A stretch of DNA of 64,000 bases from the NCBI RefSeq assembly GCF_023516435.1, contig NZ_CP097332.1:186001-250000 (forward strand), written 5' to 3'. The position numbers and the translations under genes were made by a program. Shown one piece after another: positions 4,381 to 46,937 of this stretch (the stretch's first letter is position 1; each line of letters begins with the position of its first letter). A model generated the notes under the pieces. The model was not told the DNA's origin. It worked only from the letters and a program-made list of their open reading frames with translations, and did not search any database. The DNA comes from Jatrophihabitans telluris (GTDB taxonomy: Bacteria; Actinomycetota; Actinomycetes; Mycobacteriales; Jatrophihabitantaceae).

Positions 4381-5454
4381 ATGCAGCCAGTTGAACCACC
4401 GCACGCCGGTGGGTACCCGCCCGAACCGCCCGGGCAGTTCCCTCGGTGCTATCGCCATCCGGATCGAGAGACCGGCGTGCGGTGCGTTCGCTGTGACCGC
4501 CCGATCTGCGGAGAGTGCCAACGTCCGGCATCCGTAGGCTTCCAGTGCCCCGACGACGTGAAGGCCGGGCAGGCCTCGGTTCGCAGCGCGCGGACCCTGT
4601 TCGGAAGCCGCGCGGGTTCCGGGGCGACCGTGCCGACGGTCACGTACGCGCTGATCGCGGTGAACGTGGCGGTCTACATCCTGACGGCGGTCCAGGCCAA
4701 CGGAAACTTCGTCGACAACTACACCGGCTCGCTCTTCCAGAAGTGGGAGATGTGGCCGGACGGTGTGGCCTACAACCACCAGTGGGTGCGCCTGGTCACC
4801 AGTGCGTTCCTGCACTACGGACCGTTGCACATCCTGTTGAACATGTGGGCCCTGTACGTGGTGGGCCCCGGCTTGGAACGGGCGATGGGCTGGTGGCGCT
4901 ACCTGGCCGTCTACCTGCTCGCGGCGCTCGGGGGGTCGGTGGCGACGATGCTGTTCGCCGCCCCGGCCGGCGGCTCGGTCGGCGCCTCCGGGGCGATCTT
5001 CGGACTCTTCGCTGCGGCCTGGCTACTGCAACGGGTGACCCGGATGGACACCCGGCCGCTGACCATCACCATCGTGGTGAACTTCGTCTTCACATTCTCG
5101 ATCCCGCAGATCTCCAAGACCGGGCACGTCGGCGGCTTCGTGATCGGCGGACTGGCGACGGTGGCGTTGCTGGGGTGGACCACTCGGGCGATGAGCAATT
5201 CCGCGATGCGCAAGCGGACACCAGGCGTGCAGGCGGCCAGCCTCGCGGGCATCTTGATTCTGCTGCTGGGGTTGACCCTGTTCCGCGCGCACCAGCTCGC
5301 GACGAGTCCGATCGTCCAGGGGCTGGGGACAACCGGCGCGGTTGTCCACAGTGTGGATGAGCCTGGGGAGAATTACAGCCGTGTAATCACAGCGGTGGAA
5401 GAAGCTGTGGACAACCGGGCGAGAGCTGGGATCAGCGCCAGCGAACGGCCATGA
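4381..5454 (+). CDS. Rhomboid-family intramembrane serine protease with N-terminal zinc finger
   Basis: A 357-residue protein. Residues about 23-60 form a B-box-like zinc finger (CYRHPD, CVRCDRPICGEC). This is followed by at least six membrane segments. The catalytic serine is in GASGAIFG and the partner histidine in GHVGGFV; the HYGPLHILLNMWALY segment is the conserved rhomboid loop/helix. It should cleave transmembrane substrates in the plasma membrane. It starts 13 bp after ppiA, so the two are probably co-transcribed. Its 3' end overlaps the convergent crgA by 23 bp. Confidence 0.92.
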   Translation: MQPVEPPHAGGYPPEPPGQFPRCYRHPDRETGVRCVRCDRPICGECQRPASVGFQCPDDVKAGQASVRSARTLFGSRAGSGATVPTVTYALIAVNVAVYILTAVQANGNFVDNYTGSLFQKWEMWPDGVAYNHQWVRLVTSAFLHYGPLHILLNMWALYVVGPGLERAMGWWRYLAVYLLAALGGSVATMLFAAPAGGSVGASGAIFGLFAAAWLLQRVTRMDTRPLTITIVVNFVFTFSIPQISKTGHVGGFVIGGLATVALLGWTTRAMSNSAMRKRTPGVQAASLAGILILLLGLTLFRAHQLATSPIVQGLGTTGAVVHSVDEPGENYSRVITAVEEAVDNRARAGISASERP

Positions 5455-8468: not shown

Positions 8469-9449
8469 ATGAAGGCAATAGTCGCCACCGAACCCGGCGG
8501 TCCAGAGGTCCTGTCCATGGCCGAGGTCGACCCACCGACGCCCGGTGTCGGCGAGGTGCTGCTGGACGTAGCCGCCACGGCGGTCAACCGAGCCGACCTG
8601 ATGCAGCGGGCCGGCAACTACCCGCCGCCGCCGGGAGCCTCGACGATCATCGGCCTGGAGTGCAGCGGAACCGTCGCCGCGCTCGGCCCGGGAGTGACGG
8701 GCTGGGAGATCGGTGACGAGGTGTGCGCGCTGCTCAGCGGCGGCGGGTACGCCGAGCAGGTGGTCGTACCGGTCGGCCAGCTCATGCAACGCCCGGACGG
8801 ACTCGACGCGGTGCACGCGGCCGCGCTGCCCGAAGTGGCCTGCACCGTCTGGTCGATGGTCTTCGACCAGGCCGGTCTCGCGCCCGGGGAACGGTTCCTG
8901 GTGCACGGCGGCTCGTCCGGCATCGGCACCATGGCCATCCAGCTCGCCAAGGCGATGGGCGCCCAGGTCTTCACCACCGCGGGGACGGAGGCCAAGCGGC
9001 AGGCCTGCCGCGAGCTTGGTGCGGATGTCGCGATCGACTATCGCAACGTCGACTTCGCCACCGTCATCGCGGACGAGACGCACGGCGCGGGGGTGGACGT
9101 CATCCTCGACACCATCGGGGCGAAGTACCTACCGGGCAACGTCGGGTCCCTGGCCTTCGGTGGCCGGATCGCGGTCATCGGAATGCAGGGCGGCGTGGTG
9201 GGCGAGCTGAATCTCGGGGCCTTGATGGCGCGCCGGGGTTCGATCTACGCCGCCGGCCTGCGAGCCCGGCCCCTGGAGCAGAAGGCGACGATCGTCGCCG
9301 GTGCCCAGGCGCACGTGTGGCCCCTGATCGCTCAGGGCCTGGTTCGTCCGATCGTTCACGAGGTGCTGCCGCTGGCGGAGGCGGCTCGCGCTCACCGCAT
9401 CGTGGAGGCGAGCGAACATGTCGGAAAGGTCGTACTTTCCGTTCGGTGA
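8469..9449 (+). CDS. NAD(P)H-quinone oxidoreductase, zeta-crystallin/PIG3 type
   Basis: A 326-residue zinc-independent medium-chain dehydrogenase. The N-terminal GroES-like domain contains AVNRADLMQRAGNYPPPPGAS (PIG3-like) and the Rossmann fold carries HGGSSGIGTMAIQLAKAMGA for NADPH. No structural zinc cysteine cluster is seen. It likely reduces quinones or other electrophiles in the cytoplasm. It is 23 bp from pabA and on the same strand. Confidence 0.88.
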   Translation: MKAIVATEPGGPEVLSMAEVDPPTPGVGEVLLDVAATAVNRADLMQRAGNYPPPPGASTIIGLECSGTVAALGPGVTGWEIGDEVCALLSGGGYAEQVVVPVGQLMQRPDGLDAVHAAALPEVACTVWSMVFDQAGLAPGERFLVHGGSSGIGTMAIQLAKAMGAQVFTTAGTEAKRQACRELGADVAIDYRNVDFATVIADETHGAGVDVILDTIGAKYLPGNVGSLAFGGRIAVIGMQGGVVGELNLGALMARRGSIYAAGLRARPLEQKATIVAGAQAHVWPLIAQGLVRPIVHEVLPLAEAARAHRIVEASEHVGKVVLSVR

Positions 9450-9549
9450 TCGTGAAGGGCTTTTCGGAATCTGCGGGCTATTGCGGACACCCTCGTCCTG
9501 ACCTATGTACCAGATAAGAACTCCCTTCTAGAGTCCCTCCCGTCCTGGG

Positions 9550-9593: not shown

Positions 9594-10694
9594 ATGAACA
9601 AGTATTTGACGTTGCTGGCGTCCACCGCCTCGGCCGCTCTGGTGGCTGGACTGGTCGCCGCACCCGCGTCGGGTCAGACCCGAATCGCCCATCCGAAGGC
9701 CGCGCCGCCCCCGATCAAGCTGGTGGCCGGCGGCCTGAGTGGGCCGCTGTCGATCAGCTTCAGCCCGACCGGGCGGCTCTATGCCTCTGAGGCGGCCGTC
9801 GGCGACGTCACGCGGATCAACCTCAACGGCAGCAAGAAGACTGTTGCCTCGGGCATCCAGGGCTTGGCCGGCATTTCCGCCGGGCTCCGCTACGTCTACG
9901 CCGTCCAGGGCTTCGTCCCCGAGACCGGCGGCACGCAACCGGGCAAGGCCCCGCTGCTCAAGATCGACAAGCGCGGACACGTCACCGAGGTGGCTGACCT
10001 GTTCCAGTACGAACTGGCGCACAACCCGGACGGGCAGGCCCAGGGCGATCCGTCCGACCCGAACGCGGACTCGATCTCCAACCCGTTCGCCGTCCTCGCC
10101 CAACCCCACCGGGTCCTGGTCGCCGACGGCGGAGCCAACGATGTGCTGTCCGTCGACGGCAAGGGTCAGGTGAGCACGTTCTTCGCGCCCCGCAACATCA
10201 ACGAGGGCGTCTGCGCGGGTGCGCCGAACAATGATCCGCAACACCCGGGGTGCGACCCCGTACCGACCGGTCTCGCGGTTGGGCCGCACGGTGACATCTA
10301 CGTCTCCGGCCTGGGTGCGGAGGCGCCTGGTGCAGCCCGGGTCTGGCGTCTGGACGGCCGGACCGGCCAGGTGAAGCAGGTCTGGAAGGACCTCACCGAC
10401 GCGACCGGTGTCGCGGTGGGTCCGGACGGAACGATCTACGTCAGTGAACTGTTCTACGGCGTGGACGTCTCCGACCCGAACGCCGATCCGACCAAAGCCG
10501 GGCGCATCGTGCGCATCGCTCGTGACGGGCACCGGACGTACGCGCCGGTGCGGCTGCCGGGAGGCCTCGCGATGCACCACGGCAAGCTCTACGCGACGCA
10601 GTTCTCGGTGCTCGACCTCTTCCTCGGCAGCACCGGCTCCGGTCAGATCGTGACGGTGTCGCCCAAGGCGTTCGTGGCGGGCGCGACCGGCTGA
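9594..10694 (+). CDS. ScyD/ScyE-family secreted beta-propeller protein
   Basis: A 366-residue exported protein. The ATG at 9594 follows GGGGG and yields a clean signal peptide (MNKYLTLLASTASAALVAGLVAAPASG). The rest shows repeated blade-like segments such as GPLSISFSPTGRLYASE, NPFAVLAQPHRVLVADGG, TGLAVGPHGDIYVSGLG and TGVAVGPDGTIYVSEL, typical of NHL/SMP-30-like propellers of the ScyD/ScyE annotation family. No enzyme activity can be assigned. An inverted repeat follows the gene. Confidence 0.82.
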   Translation: MNKYLTLLASTASAALVAGLVAAPASGQTRIAHPKAAPPPIKLVAGGLSGPLSISFSPTGRLYASEAAVGDVTRINLNGSKKTVASGIQGLAGISAGLRYVYAVQGFVPETGGTQPGKAPLLKIDKRGHVTEVADLFQYELAHNPDGQAQGDPSDPNADSISNPFAVLAQPHRVLVADGGANDVLSVDGKGQVSTFFAPRNINEGVCAGAPNNDPQHPGCDPVPTGLAVGPHGDIYVSGLGAEAPGAARVWRLDGRTGQVKQVWKDLTDATGVAVGPDGTIYVSELFYGVDVSDPNADPTKAGRIVRIARDGHRTYAPVRLPGGLAMHHGKLYATQFSVLDLFLGSTGSGQIVTVSPKAFVAGATG

Positions 10695-41924: not shown

Positions 41925-43385
41925 TTACTTGTCGGACCTGTCGAGGGTGATCGTCGCGGACGAGGTCGCGGCCCCACGGCTGTAGGTGATCGACACCTTC
42001 AGGCCGGGAGCGTACGAGCGCACGGCGGCGATCAGGGAATCGGCCGTGGTCACGGCGTGCGCGTTGATCGCGGTGACCACGTCGCCCACCTTCAGCCCGG
42101 CCCGAGCCGCTCCCGAGCCTGCGGTGACCCCGGCGATCTGGACGCCGGCCGCGGAGCTCGTCGACGTGGACCGCACGCTGATCCCGAGCACGGCGTGATA
42201 GGCCTTGCCGTTGGCGATCAGTTCGCTGGCGATCCGGCTCGCCTCGTCCGAGGGGATGGCGAAGCCGATGCCGATGTTGCCCGACTGCTGGGTCTGGCCC
42301 GGAATCTGCAGGCCGCCGCCGGAGGAGTCCGTAGCGATGGCGGCGTTGATTCCCATGACCGATCCGTTGAGGTCCACGAGCGGGCCCCCGGAGTTGCCCG
42401 GGTTGATCGCCGCGTCGGTCTGGATCGCCTGGAACACGGCCTGGTCGTTGTCGCCGGCGCGCACCGGTCGTGCCGTGTTGCTGACGATCCCGCTGGTGAC
42501 CGTGTCGGACAGGCCCAGCGGCGCCCCGACGGCGACGACGGTCTGGCCCACGCTGAGCGTGCTCGACTTGCCGAAGGCGGCGGCGGTCAGCTTGCTCAAC
42601 CCGCTGACCTTGATCACCGCCAGATCGTCAGAGGTGTCCCGGCCCACGATGGTGGCCTTTGCCGTGCGCCCGTCCGAGAGGGTCACCCTCAGCGATCCGC
42701 CCTGCGCAGCAAGGGAAATCACGTGGTCGTTGGTGAGGATGTAGCCGTCGTCGCGAATGATCACCCCGGAGCCTGTGCCGCCGGAGGTGCCACTGACCTC
42801 GTTGATGGTGACCACGCTCGGACGGATGCGGGCCGCCGCGGCACCGATGGTTCCGTTGGTCGGCGCGGCGGGGCCCGCGGTCGAGTTCGTGATCTTCAGG
42901 CCGGTGTTCACGGTGTCGGCATGGCGGTCGGCCACCGCGACGGTGACCGCTCCGACGCCGCCGCCCACGAGCGCGGCCACGAGCGCGGTGATGAGTAACG
43001 GCAGGCCGACCCCCGAACGGCCACGCCGCTCGTCCACGGGACGCCCACCGGCGGCCACCGCCGCGGTGTCCGCCCCGGCAGCCGGGTAGCCGTAGGGATA
43101 GCCGGTGCCGGACGACGGAGCCTGATAAGCCGGCTCGGCGCCGGCGTACCCGCCGTACGGGCTGGCGCCGTACGGACTCGTGCCGTAGGGACTGGTGCCG
43201 CCTGCGTACCCGCTGGGGTAACCGGCGGTGCCGCCGTAACTGCCCGCTACCAAGGGCGGCGGCGGGTACTGCGCCGTCACCGCGGGGGGAGGGTCCGTAC
43301 GGCCGTCTGCCGGCGTGCGCTCGTCCGGAGCTTGGTCCTGGCCACCGTGGGGCTGTGGCTCTTCGGAGAATTCGTTCTCGGCCAT
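41925..43385 (-). CDS. HtrA/DegP-like membrane serine protease
   Basis: A 486-residue protein. Residues 1-125 are a cytoplasmic Pro/Gly/Tyr-rich tail with YGTSPYGASPYG repeats; then a membrane helix (LPLLITALVAALVGGGVGAV), an S1C protease domain with His in TNDHVIS, Asp in SDDLAVIKV and Ser in NPGNSGGPLVD, and a C-terminal PDZ domain (GAARAGLKVGDVVTAINAHAV). It should act outside the membrane in protein quality control or signalling. The start at 43385 (MAENEFSEE) has AAGG upstream. Confidence 0.93.
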   Translation of the reverse strand: MAENEFSEEPQPHGGQDQAPDERTPADGRTDPPPAVTAQYPPPPLVAGSYGGTAGYPSGYAGGTSPYGTSPYGASPYGGYAGAEPAYQAPSSGTGYPYGYPAAGADTAAVAAGGRPVDERRGRSGVGLPLLITALVAALVGGGVGAVTVAVADRHADTVNTGLKITNSTAGPAAPTNGTIGAAAARIRPSVVTINEVSGTSGGTGSGVIIRDDGYILTNDHVISLAAQGGSLRVTLSDGRTAKATIVGRDTSDDLAVIKVSGLSKLTAAAFGKSSTLSVGQTVVAVGAPLGLSDTVTSGIVSNTARPVRAGDNDQAVFQAIQTDAAINPGNSGGPLVDLNGSVMGINAAIATDSSGGGLQIPGQTQQSGNIGIGFAIPSDEASRIASELIANGKAYHAVLGISVRSTSTSSAAGVQIAGVTAGSGAARAGLKVGDVVTAINAHAVTTADSLIAAVRSYAPGLKVSITYSRGAATSSATITLDRSDK

Positions 43386-43556
43386 GGTCCAACCTTGCTG
43401 AGAGAACCTGTGTGCCAACTAGGCGCTGGTCGAGCCAAGGATAGGTACAACCTGGGAGTGCGCTGACTGGGGCGTCCGATCTGACTGGCTTGTTCGTAGG
43501 TGCCGGACACGGCAGTATCGCTTGCGTACACGGATGCTTACTGCGGGAGATCTGAA

Positions 43557-44810
43557 TTGAGCGCGCGGGTGGGCTTCAGCACCGTGCTGAAAGTGCGGGA
43601 ATTCCGCGCGCTCTGGCTCGCGTCGGCGCAGTCGATGGCCGGCGATCAGCTCGCCCGAGTCGCGATCTCGGTGCTCGTCTTCGAGCGCACGTCCAACTCC
43701 GCATTGACCGCGCTGACGTATGCGCTGACGTTCTTGCCGGCGCTCATCGGGGGGATCCTGTTCGCGGGTCTGGCCGATCGGCTCCCTCGACGGCGATTGA
43801 TGATCTGGTGCGATCTGCTGCGGGCGGTCCTGATCGCCCTGATGGCGGTACCGGCCGTGCCGCTGCCGGTGCTCGGACTGTTGCTGATCGCCGTCGTCGT
43901 GATCGGTTCTCCCTTCGGGGCGGCTGAGAACGCGCTGGCTCCAATGATCCTTGACGGCGAGGCCTACGAGGTGGGCACCGGGCTGCGAGCGATGACCGAT
44001 CAGGTGGCGCAGCTGCTCGGCTTCGCCCTGGGTGGCGTGCTGATCGCGCTGTTGAGCGCGCGGGGTGGCCTGCTGGTCGATGCGGCCACTTTCCTGTTGT
44101 CGGCGCTGCTGATCCGCCTGGGCGTTCGGGAGCGGCCCCGCGCTCTCGGAAGCCGACGGGCCAGTGCTGCCGACTATCTCGACGGACTGCGCGCCGGCGC
44201 CGCGGTGATCTCCCGGACGCGGCTGCTACGGGTCCTGCTCGGCCTGGGCTGGCTGGCTGGTCTGTTCATCGTCCCGGAAGGCGTCGCGGCTCCACTGGCC
44301 GCACAGCTGGGCGGCGGTGCACGCTCTACCGGGCTGATTCTGGCGGCAATGCCGGCGGGTACGGCCCTGGGGACGTTGGTTTACAGCCGCCTGCTGGATT
44401 CGAAGCGTCGGCGCGAATGGCTCGGCCCGATGTCGGTGCTGGCCGCGGTCCCGCTGATCTGCTGCCAGTTCAGCTCGTCGCTGCTGGTGACCGTGCTGCT
44501 GCTGGCCCTCACGGGCGCGTTCACGTCCTACGAGGTGCAGGTTTTCGCCGAGTACGCGCGTGCGGTGCCCGACCGGTGGCGGGGGCAGGCGATCGGCCTG
44601 GCGGCGTCGGGGGTTCTGGCCGTGCAGGGTCTTGGCGTCCTGCTCGGCGGCCTCGTGGCTCAGCAGTGGAGCCCGGAGTTCGCTGTATGCGCCGCGGGTC
44701 TGGCCCAACTCGTCCTCGCGCTGATGCTGGCGCGGGCGTGGCGGCGCTTGGGTGTAGCCGAAGGAACTTGCGACGAAGGAGTCTTCGTCGAGGCGTTGCC
44801 GGGAGAGTGA
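43557..44810 (+). CDS. MFS exporter
   Basis: A protein of about 417 residues with around 12 membrane helices. Motif A-like GLADRLPRRRLMIWCDLLRAVLIALMAVP and an opening LKVREFRALWLASAQSMAGDQLARVAISVLVFERTSN place it in the macrolide-efflux/enterobactin-exporter-like MFS group. The TTG at 43557 is preferred because GGGAG precedes it by 8 nt; GTG at 43569 is an alternative. The gene points toward the heptapeptide mini-gene array at 44886-45141, which makes it a candidate exporter of that product (inference). Confidence 0.87.
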   Translation: MSARVGFSTVLKVREFRALWLASAQSMAGDQLARVAISVLVFERTSNSALTALTYALTFLPALIGGILFAGLADRLPRRRLMIWCDLLRAVLIALMAVPAVPLPVLGLLLIAVVVIGSPFGAAENALAPMILDGEAYEVGTGLRAMTDQVAQLLGFALGGVLIALLSARGGLLVDAATFLLSALLIRLGVRERPRALGSRRASAADYLDGLRAGAAVISRTRLLRVLLGLGWLAGLFIVPEGVAAPLAAQLGGGARSTGLILAAMPAGTALGTLVYSRLLDSKRRREWLGPMSVLAAVPLICCQFSSSLLVTVLLLALTGAFTSYEVQVFAEYARAVPDRWRGQAIGLAASGVLAVQGLGVLLGGLVAQQWSPEFAVCAAGLAQLVLALMLARAWRRLGVAEGTCDEGVFVEALPGE

Positions 44811-44885
44811 GGCCGGCGACCGGGAACGATCCGGTCCGGTATTTCGAGCTTGGCTGACTGCACGTCTGGACGGCAGTTCGGGGGC

Positions 44886-44909
44886 CTAGCGCCAGGTCAC
44901 GTTGTTCAT
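44886..44909 (-). CDS. Mini-ORF 4 (downstream-most), peptide MNNVTWR
   Basis: ATG start at 44909, TAG stop. GAGAGGA (44916-44922) lies 6 nt upstream. No further minus-strand ORF follows before the convergent MFS gene, so this is the end of the array. Confidence 0.7.
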   Translation of the reverse strand: MNNVTWR

Positions 44910-44961
44910 CGGGTGTCCTCTCAGATGGTGTCGGTCGGGCGTCGGGGTGGTGCGGGGCTGA

Positions 44962-44985
44962 TTAGCGCCAGGTCACGTTGTTCAT
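44962..44985 (-). CDS. Mini-ORF 3, peptide MNNVTWR
   Basis: ATG start at 44985, TAA stop. GAGAGGA (44992-44998) lies 6 nt upstream. Same sense codons as copies 2 and 4 but a different stop codon. Confidence 0.7.
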   Translation of the reverse strand: MNNVTWR

Positions 44986-45037
44986 CGGGTGTCCTCTCGG
45001 ATCGTGTCGGTCGGGCGTCGGGGTGGTGCGGGGCTGA

Positions 45038-45061
45038 TCAGCGCCAGGTCACGTTGTTCAT
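45038..45061 (-). CDS. Mini-ORF 2, peptide MNNVTWR
   Basis: ATG start at 45061, TGA stop. AAAGGA lies 6 nt upstream. The spacer before it is unlike the spacers before copies 3 and 4, yet the 21 coding bases are identical to theirs. Confidence 0.7.
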   Translation of the reverse strand: MNNVTWR

Positions 45062-45117
45062 GGGATTTCCTTTCCAGACGGATGGCGGCGGGATGCGTGT
45101 CGGCGTGTCGACCTAGG

Positions 45118-45141
45118 TCAGCGCCAAGTGACGTTGCTCAC
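45118..45141 (-). CDS. Mini-ORF 1 (upstream-most), peptide MSNVTWR
   Basis: GTG start at 45141, TGA stop. AAAGGAG (45147-45153) lies 5 nt upstream, an excellent ribosome site. Against the other copies it differs at four bases: the start codon (ATG to GTG), Asn2 to Ser, and two silent changes (valine GTG to GTC, threonine ACC to ACT). It is the best evidence that the reading frame is under selection. No known family. Confidence 0.7.
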   Translation of the reverse strand: MSNVTWR

Positions 45142-45194
45142 TTTCGCTCCTTTCTGAGTGACCGCAGCCGATGCACGAACCGGCGAATTAGGTC

Positions 45195-45243
45195 TGTGTG
45201 AACCACAGGCACGGCGGTCTTGTGAACAATTCACACGGTTCAC
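45195..45243. promoter_or_regulatory. Nested palindromic operator candidate
   Basis: TGTGAACAATTCACA (45221-45235) is an inverted repeat of TGTGAA/TTCACA with a 3-nt centre, close to a Crp-type site but one base shorter. It is flanked by GTGAACC (45198-45204) and GGTTCAC (45237-45243), themselves an exact inverted pair. Four GTGAAC-type half-sites in 49 bp, 57 bp upstream of the first mini-ORF, suggest cooperative regulator binding. Confidence 0.5.
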
Positions 45244-45456
45244 GCCGTTACCCGCGGCCCGGTGTGTCGTTGAGCGTGTCGACGGCCGAAACTCCGGGCT
45301 CCTGATTGGATTGCCGGGGAAATGGGTCGCGAATGCCCATGCCCACGGGGCTGCATGGGTCTGCGCAGGTCGTCATAGCTAGCTACCCTCCGGCCGGTCG
45401 TGGTGGAACTTGTCCGGGCATGCAAAATTTGCCTGGTACGTACTACTTGTCCCGGC

Positions 45457-45478
45457 TTGTACGATTTGGAACGTACAA
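45457..45478. promoter_or_regulatory. TTGTACG/CGTACAA inverted repeat
   Basis: Seven-bp perfect arms (45457-45463 and 45472-45478) with an 8-nt centre, in the AT-richer part of the gap, 176 bp before the GGDEF gene. It shares GTACGATTT with the palindromic site in front of the EphD-like gene (47082-47090). Operator function is inferred. Confidence 0.45.
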
Positions 45479-45653
45479 ATCCCGGCCCCCGATGGGGCAC
45501 GGCACCCGCTCCGCCGTGACTCCTGTGGCGGGTGGTGAAGGCCCTGGGTAAATCTTGACTGAGGCGGTATCTAAGCCGCGTTAAATAGCTCAACTTCTCT
45601 GGCGGAAGCTGTAGTCAGTCCGCTACGGTTTGTGTATCCCGAGGAGCGTCCGC

Positions 45654-46937
45654 ATGACACGAACCACACCAACTGGTGCATTGCGCGGGTTTTCGCGCGC
45701 CCGCGCCTGGGCTGTGTGGTTCATCCCATCTGGAGTCAAGCGGGTAGTTTTAACCGTCGACATATTTGCCATTTTCCTGGCAATCGCCGCGTTCGCCTCA
45801 ATTAGCGCCACGTCTCATGAGATGTGGCTTTTTGTCGGCCTCCTGGTCGCGAGCACGGTGTTCGAGGAAATCTCAGCGCACGTCGAAAGCATGCGGTTCC
45901 GGCTCAACGTGGCCATGCACGCCGACCTCACCTCCGTCTGGACCTTCTCCGCGGCCGTCGTGCTTCCGCTTCATCTGGTCTTCGTCCTCTTCGTCGTCGT
46001 GCGACTGCACATGTGGTTCCGCCACCACAAGCCGTCCGGGGCCACGCCGCACCGGCTGTTCTTCACCGCGGCCACGATCTGGATCGCCGGCGTCGTCGCC
46101 CACGAAGCCGTTCGCTCCCTGATGCACGGCTCGTCGTCGATCATCGGCTCCGGCGCGTTGGCCGTCCTCGTGATCGCGGCCGCCATGCTCGTCTACGCCA
46201 GCACGAACATCGGCCTGGTGTACCTGGTCATGCTGGTCTCGGCCGGCCGAGAGAAGACCCCCGCCTTCTGGAGCCTGTGGCGGGAGAACGCGATGGAGCT
46301 GGCGACCCTGTGCCTCGGCGCCATGGTCGCCCTCTGCCTCGTCTTCCAGCCGTTCTTCATGGTCTTGGTCATCGCTCCCATGGTGTTGCTGCAGCGCAGC
46401 GTCCTCACCAAGGAACTGCAGGTGGCGGCCACGACCGACGCGAAGACCGGCCTGCTCAACGCGGTCACCTGGCAGGAACTGGCCGAGCGCGAACTCACCC
46501 GTTCACGCCGCGAGGGTTACAACGCGGCGATGCTGATCATCGACATGGACAACTTCAAGTCCATCAACGACAGCCACGGCCATCTCGTGGGAGATGCCGT
46601 ACTCAAGGCCGTCGCGGCCCTGCTCGGCGACGAGCTTCGGGAGTACGACACCATCGGCCGCTTCGGTGGCGAGGAGTTCGTGGCGCTCCTGCCCCAGGTG
46701 TCACCGCTGGACGCCCTCGCGATCTCCGACCGCGTGCTGCAGGCGGTTCGGGACCTTCGTATCCCCCTGCGCGGCGAGGAGATCCCGCTGTCGGGCTTGT
46801 CGGCGTCCATCGGACTCGCGGCCTTCCCCCAGCAGGGCGATGCGGTCGAGGACCTGCTGCACGTTGCCGACGCCGCGCTCTACCGAGCCAAGCGTGAGGG
46901 TCGCGACCGCGTCGAGTACAGCTACATCGGCGACTGA
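45654..46937 (+). CDS. Membrane-bound diguanylate cyclase
   Basis: A 427-residue protein; ATG preceded by GAGGAG. About six membrane helices (residues 30-255, a MASE-like sensor without recognised family) precede a GGDEF domain: TDAKTGLLNAVTWQELAERE, DMDNFKSINDSHGHLVGD, and the active-site loop FGGEEFVALLP. The signature is intact (GGEEF), so cyclic di-GMP synthesis is likely. No inhibitory RxxD is obvious. It is the nearest regulator gene to the mini-ORF array, transcribed away from it. Confidence 0.92.
   Translation: MTRTTPTGALRGFSRARAWAVWFIPSGVKRVVLTVDIFAIFLAIAAFASISATSHEMWLFVGLLVASTVFEEISAHVESMRFRLNVAMHADLTSVWTFSAAVVLPLHLVFVLFVVVRLHMWFRHHKPSGATPHRLFFTAATIWIAGVVAHEAVRSLMHGSSSIIGSGALAVLVIAAAMLVYASTNIGLVYLVMLVSAGREKTPAFWSLWRENAMELATLCLGAMVALCLVFQPFFMVLVIAPMVLLQRSVLTKELQVAATTDAKTGLLNAVTWQELAERELTRSRREGYNAAMLIIDMDNFKSINDSHGHLVGDAVLKAVAALLGDELREYDTIGRFGGEEFVALLPQVSPLDALAISDRVLQAVRDLRIPLRGEEIPLSGLSASIGLAAFPQQGDAVEDLLHVADAALYRAKREGRDRVEYSYIGD

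Follow-up and report, generated by a model that had tools for sequence, protein, structure and literature searches.

Are four nearly identical 24-nt open reading frames on the minus strand of the Jatrophihabitans telluris chromosome genes for a selected peptide and, if so, what might a peptide of seven residues be made for? The window (the whole 64,000-nt stretch of DNA that was analysed) carries them at 44886-45141, one copy for MSNVTWR followed by three for MNNVTWR (Table 1), with periods of 80, 76 and 76 nt. A previous, sequence-only reading had inferred selection on the peptide from the way these copies differ, and the differences it listed are indeed there: the stops are TGA, TGA, TAA and TAG; the first-transcribed copy begins with GTG and differs further by two silent changes (Val, Thr) and a single replacement (Asn2 to Ser); and the spacer between copies 1 and 2 (56 nt) is unlike the two 52-nt spacers, which differ from each other at 2/52 positions. 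That reading was silent on the Shine-Dalgarno sequence found 5' of every window copy, at normal spacing to the start in 4/4 cases, which is independent evidence of translation. Copies 2-4 have identical sense codons throughout, and copies 3 and 4 are near-identical in their leading spacers as well; they look like recent duplicates, so that the contrast between silent and replacing changes in the window rests on one diverged copy. With two silent changes and one replacement, the four copies on their own prove little about selection on the peptide. A degenerate motif (≤2 mismatches) occurs four times in the window, compared with a mean of 0.04 and a maximum of 1 in 100 shuffles, and its four occurrences in the whole 4.19-Mb genome are all at this array.

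Table 1. Positions of the mini-ORF array and of the flanking features in the window
Feature	Position	Strand	Sequence or basis
Mini-ORF copy 1 (first transcribed), MSNVTWR, GTG start, TGA stop	45118..45141	-	GTGAGCAACGTCACTTGGCGCTGA
Mini-ORF copy 2, MNNVTWR, ATG start, TGA stop	45038..45061	-	ATGAACAACGTGACCTGGCGC (common to copies 2-4)
Mini-ORF copy 3, MNNVTWR, ATG start, TAA stop	44962..44985	-	ATGAACAACGTGACCTGGCGC
Mini-ORF copy 4, MNNVTWR, ATG start, TAG stop	44886..44909	-	ATGAACAACGTGACCTGGCGC
Shine-Dalgarno of copy 1, AAAGGAG (core AAGGAG)	45147..45153	-	read from sequence
Shine-Dalgarno of copy 2, AAAGGA (core AAGGA)	45068..45073	-	read from sequence
Shine-Dalgarno of copy 3, GAGAGGA (core GAGGA)	44992..44998	-	read from sequence
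Shine-Dalgarno of copy 4, GAGAGGA (core GAGGA)	44916..44922	-	read from sequence
Copy 1/copy 2 spacer, 56 nt, unlike the other two	45062..45117	-	
Copy 2/copy 3 spacer, 52 nt	44986..45037	-	
Copy 3/copy 4 spacer, 52 nt, 2/52 mismatches against the copy 2/copy 3 spacer	44910..44961	-	
Divergent intergenic region, presumed promoters of array (-) and GGDEF gene (+), role inferred	45142..45653	.	
MFS transporter, convergent to array; true start may be near 43590	43500..44810	+	PF07690, PF05977 above cut-off
Membrane domain, about 250 aa, predicted S-component-like fold	45654..46403	+	
GGDEF domain, GGEEF and RxxD inhibition site	46404..46937	+	REYDTIGRFGGEEF

A conserved RNA element had also been disfavoured in the sequence-only reading, and the folding test points the same way: 195 of 200 shuffles fold better than the window array (the other arrays were not part of this test), and RNA structure in it is thus not supported. 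An Rfam scan gave no match at the window array, its one sub-threshold match (M23) lying in the HtrA gene region, and a sigma-70 consensus promoter and terminator scan of 44600-45700 returned no match.

As a free-standing gene, the exact peptide was found nowhere outside its own genome in searches of the family, of a phylum sample and of genome contigs. The start motif (≤1 mismatch) matched in 3 of 24 family genomes, namely its own and two with single hits and an altered peptide, and in 2 of 396 genomes of the phylum sample, namely its own and one in which the match has no start or stop codon. Peptide matches in Paenibacillus and Plantibacter fall within open frames of 307 and 1139 codons, where no Shine-Dalgarno-preceded mini-ORF is present, and are hence ascribed to chance. 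The way into related loci is synteny, not peptide sequence. The MFS and GGDEF genes that flank the array are kept as a pair across the genus and family, and the gap between them contains tandem mini-ORFs that share the orientation of the window array and have a ribosome-binding site apiece, but encode other peptides (hereafter "words").

Words of the genus and family include MNNNQWF, MTNHIWG, MLDNWRWP, MNNHGW and MQHLEWQ, as well as MTVVNWS (7 copies), MNSWHI (5), MNSNSW (7) and MSNWGWGK (3); the order and class add MRNRAW (8), MSGRDF/MTGRDF (6), MRNRES (5) and MANRDN/MTNRDN/MRNRDN (11). One array of five copies mixes MNVWDW, MNLWDW and MNIWDW, the relatives MRSKDL and MSKDL reach 16 copies in the counted stretch, and the group formed by MRDNTWT, MRDTTWS and MRDNNWN has 4 to 13. 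Judging from these orthologous arrays, the word hardly changes from copy to copy of an array but differs from one lineage to the next. Met aside, no residue occurs in every word. Many words have Trp near the C-terminus, yet the MRNRDN, MSKDL and MRTREH arrays lack it, and the C-terminal residue varies, with a few words ending in Asn. The modal peptide length is 7 aa in 24, 6 in 23 and 8 in 7 of the 54 arrays that were eventually defined (see below), whose median period is 71 nt. The longest array seen (L104:4161-5437, plus strand) comprises 19 mini-ORFs, in which a 5-aa form (MSKDL) and a 6-aa form (MRSKDL, MHSKDL) of one word alternate for the most part. Besides, Ser at position 2 (MSN...) of the first-transcribed copy is shared by the window, L016 and L018, three genomes with different words, while later copies mostly have Asn or Thr; such a copy may be the older, founding one.

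Other features around the arrays were seen in only some of the loci. Two complete MFS-array-GGDEF modules with different peptides (of the MLDNWRWP and MNNHGW types) lie in tandem in L061 and L062, and in L063 the first module is followed by a second MFS gene and then by the end of the contig. L016 and L018, whose arrays encode different peptides, share a hairpin-like GAGCCACGGGGGCTC directly after the last mini-ORF, a possible 3' end of the transcript. Upstream of the first copy, GACAAT and CATACTC recur in L123, L126, L128, L129, L132, L134 and L138, and in L096, L103, L106 and L107; by eye and without statistics, these look like promoter elements. A sigma-28/WhiG-like promoter was considered as well and dropped, as inspection of 54 upstream sequences by eye revealed no family-wide match.

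To what extent the array accompanies the membrane-GGDEF gene was assessed with a membrane-domain profile built from 25 sequences. Homologues occur in 108 of 397 genomes of the order (E <= 1e-10) and 75 of 394 of the class (E <= 1e-15), and a wider profile found them in 9 of 396 genomes of the phylum sample (its own and eight others). Only some of the order and class hits were read: 37 order regions from other families, taken for the most part from the head of the hit list, and 30 class loci, one of which is the own. In the ten phylum-sample loci that were read in addition to the window locus (L152-L161), arrays and strict single mini-ORFs are both absent. For 106 of the 109 distinct membrane domains collected, the divergent upstream DNA spans 300 bp or more; at least two alike, Shine-Dalgarno-preceded mini-ORFs were found on the divergent strand at 55/106 loci, versus 2/106 on the other strand and 0/530 dinucleotide shuffles. 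Removal of duplicates and of one locus with little upstream DNA left arrays of 2-16 mini-ORFs, encoding 5-8 residues, at 54 of 104 distinct loci.

A strict single mini-ORF, defined by a length of 5-8 aa and five or more Shine-Dalgarno bases, is present in 30 of the 50 array-less loci, compared with 39 of 1000 shuffles (3.9%). Some single words recur, MNGRED in five loci, MCGRDN in two and MLRGVTWI/MLRGVTWT in four, and others (MTLTSA, MPLAPHG, MVVTYL, MPWSFAE) are probably due to chance; strict singles accompany 15/21 loci with an MFS gene upstream and 15/29 without. An array or a single mini-ORF thus stands at 84 of the 104 loci read and neither at 20, which include two with fused repeats (L036, L113), two whose mini-ORF the strict rule missed (L094, L110) and, for example, L091-L093 and L105 with nothing in the slot. 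The own genome's second membrane-GGDEF homologue (L080, L160) has no array, strict single or MFS gene alongside.

With many arrays at hand, the comparisons that the sequence-only reading had proposed as a check could be run between copies within arrays. Over codons 2 to the last, 54 arrays with 228 copies contain 57 silent and 33 replacing distinct variants (63% silent). Since the array finder itself accepts only peptides that are alike (with a minimum of 4 identical residues and of 60%), the neutral simulation was given the same detection filter; its silent fraction is 0.310 (sd 0.035, max 0.427), and 0/400 runs reach the observed 0.633. A simpler count gives 56 silent to 34 replacing variants, with 26 silent expected. 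Copies were counted only if of modal length (hence 8/16 in L104, 4/6 in L099, 3/5 in L125 and 3/5 in L084), L015, a duplicate of L027, was excluded from the codon tests, and so were off-frame repeats in L131, L138 and L128.

Identity follows the codons. Its pairwise mean is 0.938 there but only 0.395 for the upstream flank (17-36 nt away) and 0.460 for the downstream one (20 nt), with the codons ahead of the former in 54/54 arrays and of the latter in 53/54; the demand for likeness inflates codon identity somewhat, and the simulation corrects the silent fraction only. Start codons are mixed in 22/54 arrays and stop codons in 11/54. A scan for decayed copies pointed to 34 places; on inspection by eye, 8 of them are additional intact copies, 10 are intact ORFs of another length that were known already, 5 were judged to be decayed copies and 11 to be chance. 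What would have refuted the initial claim, frame-breaking or replacing changes as common as silent ones, is therefore not what the arrays contain (about 5 decayed against 236 intact copies), and its core, selection on the peptide, stands; VTWR itself, which it had singled out, is not what is conserved. In two loci beside the same kind of GGDEF gene, fused in-frame repeats replace the separate mini-ORFs: L058 encodes MQNQGWNQGW plus a 42-residue NQGW repeat (9409-9537 and 9595-9627, minus strand), and L113 DDSNW repeats without individual starts or stops (4422-4649, plus strand, where 4422 is merely the first ATG and a start closer to the repeats is possible). Words fused without starts and stops of their own would be difficult to account for if the functional unit were anything but the peptide. 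At the level of sequence comparison, we thus regard it as established that the repeats are a tandem array of genes for peptides of 5-8 residues, with their own ribosome-binding sites and with the peptide under selection, and that they belong to a recurrent three-part module of MFS gene, convergent mini-gene array and divergent membrane-GGDEF gene.

Concerning the MFS partner, the best curated models for the window protein, neither of which reaches its cut-off, are TIGR00900 (H+ antiporter family) and that of the enterobactin exporter EntS, followed by weaker matches to Tap, Mef and some importers; the MFS model for ryptide export matches weakly, far below cut-off (E 0.00031). The last mini-ORF of the window array lies 78 nt from the end of the MFS match. 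By tblastn, an MFS gene stands beyond the array and convergent to it in 42/54 array loci (gap 0-464 nt, median 97); elsewhere it has the opposite orientation (1), lies downstream (2) or has no match in the examined stretch (9, several of these stretches being cut short). One of the loci without an MFS match in a short stretch, L039, has an MFS gene in its wider locus L050, and L049 and L060 have none within about 8-10 kb. The longest co-oriented frame between array and MFS gene spans 60-69 codons in 5/42 loci and less in 37/42. Translation attenuation would call for a regulated gene on the same strand directly downstream, which is wanting in the window and in 42/54 arrays. Given a convergent MFS gene within 464 nt in those 42 loci and no RNA structure in the window array, we take the mini-ORFs for peptide genes rather than leaders.

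When the neighbouring proteins of 71 loci were clustered, no third neighbour proved to recur in most of them, the next group among the 25 largest listed occurring in 16. This clustering left out the f105-type loci L122-L150, and many loci reach only ~3 kb per side. Its first group (71 loci, 119 proteins) evidently lumps MFS proteins together with GGDEF ones via a long spurious frame, so that we use it only for the lack of a third partner and take the partner counts from tblastn. In a Pfam scan, the 31 neighbours of six array loci (window, L048, L051, L057, L065, L090) proved mostly housekeeping-like and comprised neither P450 nor ThiF. Single occurrences among them are, in L090, a radical-SAM protein carrying a CofH-type domain, in L065 an EAL-domain protein and in L051 a luciferase-like monooxygenase; L051 also has a 2-oxoglutarate dehydrogenase, and the window has an AidB-like dehydrogenase and a member of the alpha-amylase family. 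The L048 module sits between a HemD-type gene and an ALAD gene within a haem-biosynthesis run, as if inserted. Beside the window MFS gene lies a gene for an HtrA-like trypsin/PDZ protease (41925-43418, minus strand), with a related gene in 6/71 loci, all of the own genus; it could process the peptide or be an ordinary neighbour.

On the other side of the array, the gene at 45654-46937 (+), divergent from it, encodes a GGDEF protein by Pfam and NCBIfam. GGEEF is kept in 45/45 readable array-linked cyclase domains (9 more are cut short) and RxxD in 42/45; with these motifs, the proteins look like working cyclases, an activity that is inferred. An AF2 model of the window membrane domain (80 sequences; pLDDT 91.3, pTM 0.87) has seven long and three short helices. 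Foldseek with this model returned nothing at E <= 0.001. In the VIA alignment, the first 11 rows are ECF S components or CbiM (Z 12.5 to 7.9, the next row 6.8), including RibU (Z 12.5, rmsd 3.4 over 152 residues), PanT (11.4), ThiT (8.5) and 4huq, titled only "a transporter", which we take to be ECF. Helical bundles below about Z 13 may share their arrangement only, and the best score is just under that level; the resemblance to ECF S components is thus a prediction from the model. The window membrane domain itself has no meaningful Pfam match, MASE9 (PF20972) included, and 15/80 relatives match MASE9 weakly at E <= 1 (best E 0.00075). As far as the part of PMC11109136 available to us goes, the S-component fold is the receptor fold of LytS/BtsS-type kinases, with GGDEF or EAL attached in some.

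If the membrane domain is a receptor, words and domains should have diverged together. Peptide identity correlates with membrane-domain identity (rho 0.29 over 83 loci, 0.32 over 73) and with GGDEF identity (0.28); the partial correlations are 0.24 for the membrane domain given GGDEF and 0.17 for GGDEF given the membrane domain. These values are small, uncorrected for shared descent and based on one word per locus, with single ones chosen by eye. Paralogs within a genome have the same word in 0/19 pairs, one pair (RNKDL and RNKDW in G650) being one residue apart; between genomes, no pair with the same word falls below 50% membrane-domain identity and 35 lie above. As words are not shared below 50% between genomes either, and as one paralog pair differs by a single residue, insulation of paralogous modules remains unproven. 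The pattern is consistent with, but no proof of, a matching of words and receptors, the role of the cyclase as receptor being inferred.

Our preferred reading, which we hold at a probability of roughly 0.52, is that the array encodes, in several copies, a leaderless signal peptide which the MFS protein exports and the partner cyclase senses; expression, export, binding and the effect on c-di-GMP are all inferred. A promoter in the divergent region would give a single transcript, from which each copy would be translated separately, and copy number together with very short ORFs would raise the yield. Such high yield is plausible because ORFs of 2-8 codons, the mccA message among them, can be translated reiteratively, according to the part of PMC6495379 available to us. 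The free peptide of 5-8 residues, perhaps still N-formylated, would leave the cell through the neighbouring MFS protein and bind the S-component-like pocket in the membrane domain of the partner cyclase, thereby changing its c-di-GMP output. Peptide and receptor would co-diverge, which would leave each lineage and each paralogous module with a private word; at the two loci with words joined in frame, cleavage would be needed, or the words would be read as a repeat. Counting against this reading are the 20/104 loci without an array or strict single, the ten further phylum-sample loci that likewise lack both, and the 9/54 arrays without an MFS match; MFS proteins are also unusual as peptide exporters, and importers are among the weaker model matches of the window one. 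A more tentative proposal, which we hold at somewhat short of even odds, is that the modules constitute a new class of bacterial cell-cell signalling. Hypervariable peptides of 5-8 residues without a leader, encoded by tandem arrays of genes of the smallest kind, would be secreted by an MFS exporter dedicated to them and sensed by a private diguanylate cyclase with an S-component fold, which would give each lineage and each paralogous module a peptide-to-c-di-GMP channel of its own.

The main rival retains export by the MFS protein and makes the peptides leaderless precursors of a small secreted natural product, be it a RiPP or an antibiotic like microcin C or a biarylitide, with the GGDEF protein only regulating production or sensing the product or its target. 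Trp near the C-terminus is common in the words, aromatic residues are typical crosslinking sites, and the window MFS protein has its weak match to the ryptide-export model. Precursor genes of 5-7 codons are also known, for biarylitides (PMC13417212) and microcin C (PMC6495379), from what could be consulted of either source. We nevertheless consider this unlikely, as no enzyme gene recurs beside the arrays in the 71 clustered loci, P450 and ThiF are missing from the 31 scanned neighbours, where the radical-SAM protein and the monooxygenase occur once each and at different loci, and the words offer no universal residue after Met, no Trp in several arrays and a varying C-terminus. Rather improbable, in our view, is that the peptides stay inside and regulate the partner cyclase or the MFS protein in the cell or membrane, as other bacterial micropeptides do. 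They have no signal sequence, and 9/54 array loci have no MFS match (in some cases because the stretch is cut short), but 5-8 mostly hydrophilic residues are too short for a transmembrane helix, the adjacent MFS gene would be left unexplained, and known S components take their ligand from outside.

Two further explanations do without a functional peptide product. The act of translation could matter more than the peptide, with the mini-ORFs serving as leader ORFs or as ribosome or tRNA sinks, for which many strong ribosome-binding sites on very short ORFs would be apt, minigenes being able to cause peptidyl-tRNA drop-off. Against such a device, to which we give only a slim chance, the 0-464 nt gap to the MFS gene with its short co-oriented frames (42/54) is almost too small to hold an attenuated gene, an excess of silent over replacing changes is not what a codon-specific sink would favour, the fused words of L058 and L113 have lost separate starts and stops, and the window array is without RNA structure. 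The near-identity of window copies 3 and 4, leading spacers included, would also suit a non-functional tandem duplication, or else an array of DNA-binding sites; we give next to no credence to either and regard both as already refuted as a general explanation by the comparison of arrays, given that copies are highly alike only within the codons (identity 0.94, with 0.40 upstream and 0.46 downstream, in 54 arrays), variants are mostly silent, decayed copies are few, starts vary among start codons and stops among stop codons, and unrelated words occupy the same slot in other lineages.

Set beside known systems, the signalling module proposed here shares single traits with several. Microcin C has an MFS protein, MccC, as its exporter. 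Its precursor gene has 7 codons and no leader, and precursor sequences are not conserved (PMC6495379, consulted in part). The window peptide gene is likewise of 7 codons and leaderless; unlike microcin C, the six scanned loci have no MccB/ThiF-like gene among their 31 neighbours and no recurrent third neighbour, MNNVTWR ends in Arg and the C-terminus of the arrays is not always Asn, tandem copies reach 16 in the count, and a membrane cyclase is the constant partner. Biarylitide genes measure 18 bp, encode aromatic residues and occur in up to six copies in a Lysinibacillus strain, as stated in the accessible part of PMC13417212. Like the five-codon bytA, the mini-ORFs are among the smallest genes known, sometimes multi-copy and with aromatic residues, whereas no P450 was found among the scanned neighbours, the 5-8 residues vary freely and the arrays are regular. 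The peptide pheromones of Gram-positive bacteria (Phr, arbitrium, SHP/XIP, Agr) are short and variable, with a matched receptor encoded nearby and co-divergence of word and receptor, and XIP sometimes contains Trp pairs. Here, too, a variable short peptide gene is linked to a putative receptor gene, and the word tracks the membrane domain; in contrast to the pheromones, the arrays have no signal or pro-peptide, consist of separate, very short tandem ORFs, and face a proposed receptor that is itself a diguanylate cyclase. LytS/BtsS-type receptors and MASE9 resemble the window cyclase in its predicted S-component-like fold, yet the ligand of BtsS is pyruvate (by the title of a reference in PMC11109136), while the one proposed here is a peptide, and the portion of PMC11109136 at our disposal does not mention a peptide gene array.

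Full-text searches of open-access papers turned up no description of this system, by which the absence of any description is not established. We know of no family that combines these parts. Biarylitide genes of 18 bp are below ordinary annotation thresholds (PMC13417212, as far as seen), and so are genes of 5-8 codons, which is how a layer of secreted or regulatory peptides can go unseen in sequenced genomes. The module looks widespread and brings along its likely exporter and its likely receptor. Should the signalling interpretation hold, we would know of no earlier short-peptide system whose signal a diguanylate cyclase reads directly, and the words of this one would be cheap, synthesizable candidates for testing whether and how these bacteria signal to kin via c-di-GMP. 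Besides, the slot between the MFS and GGDEF genes is a simple place to study the evolution of tandem gene number and of peptide/receptor specificity.
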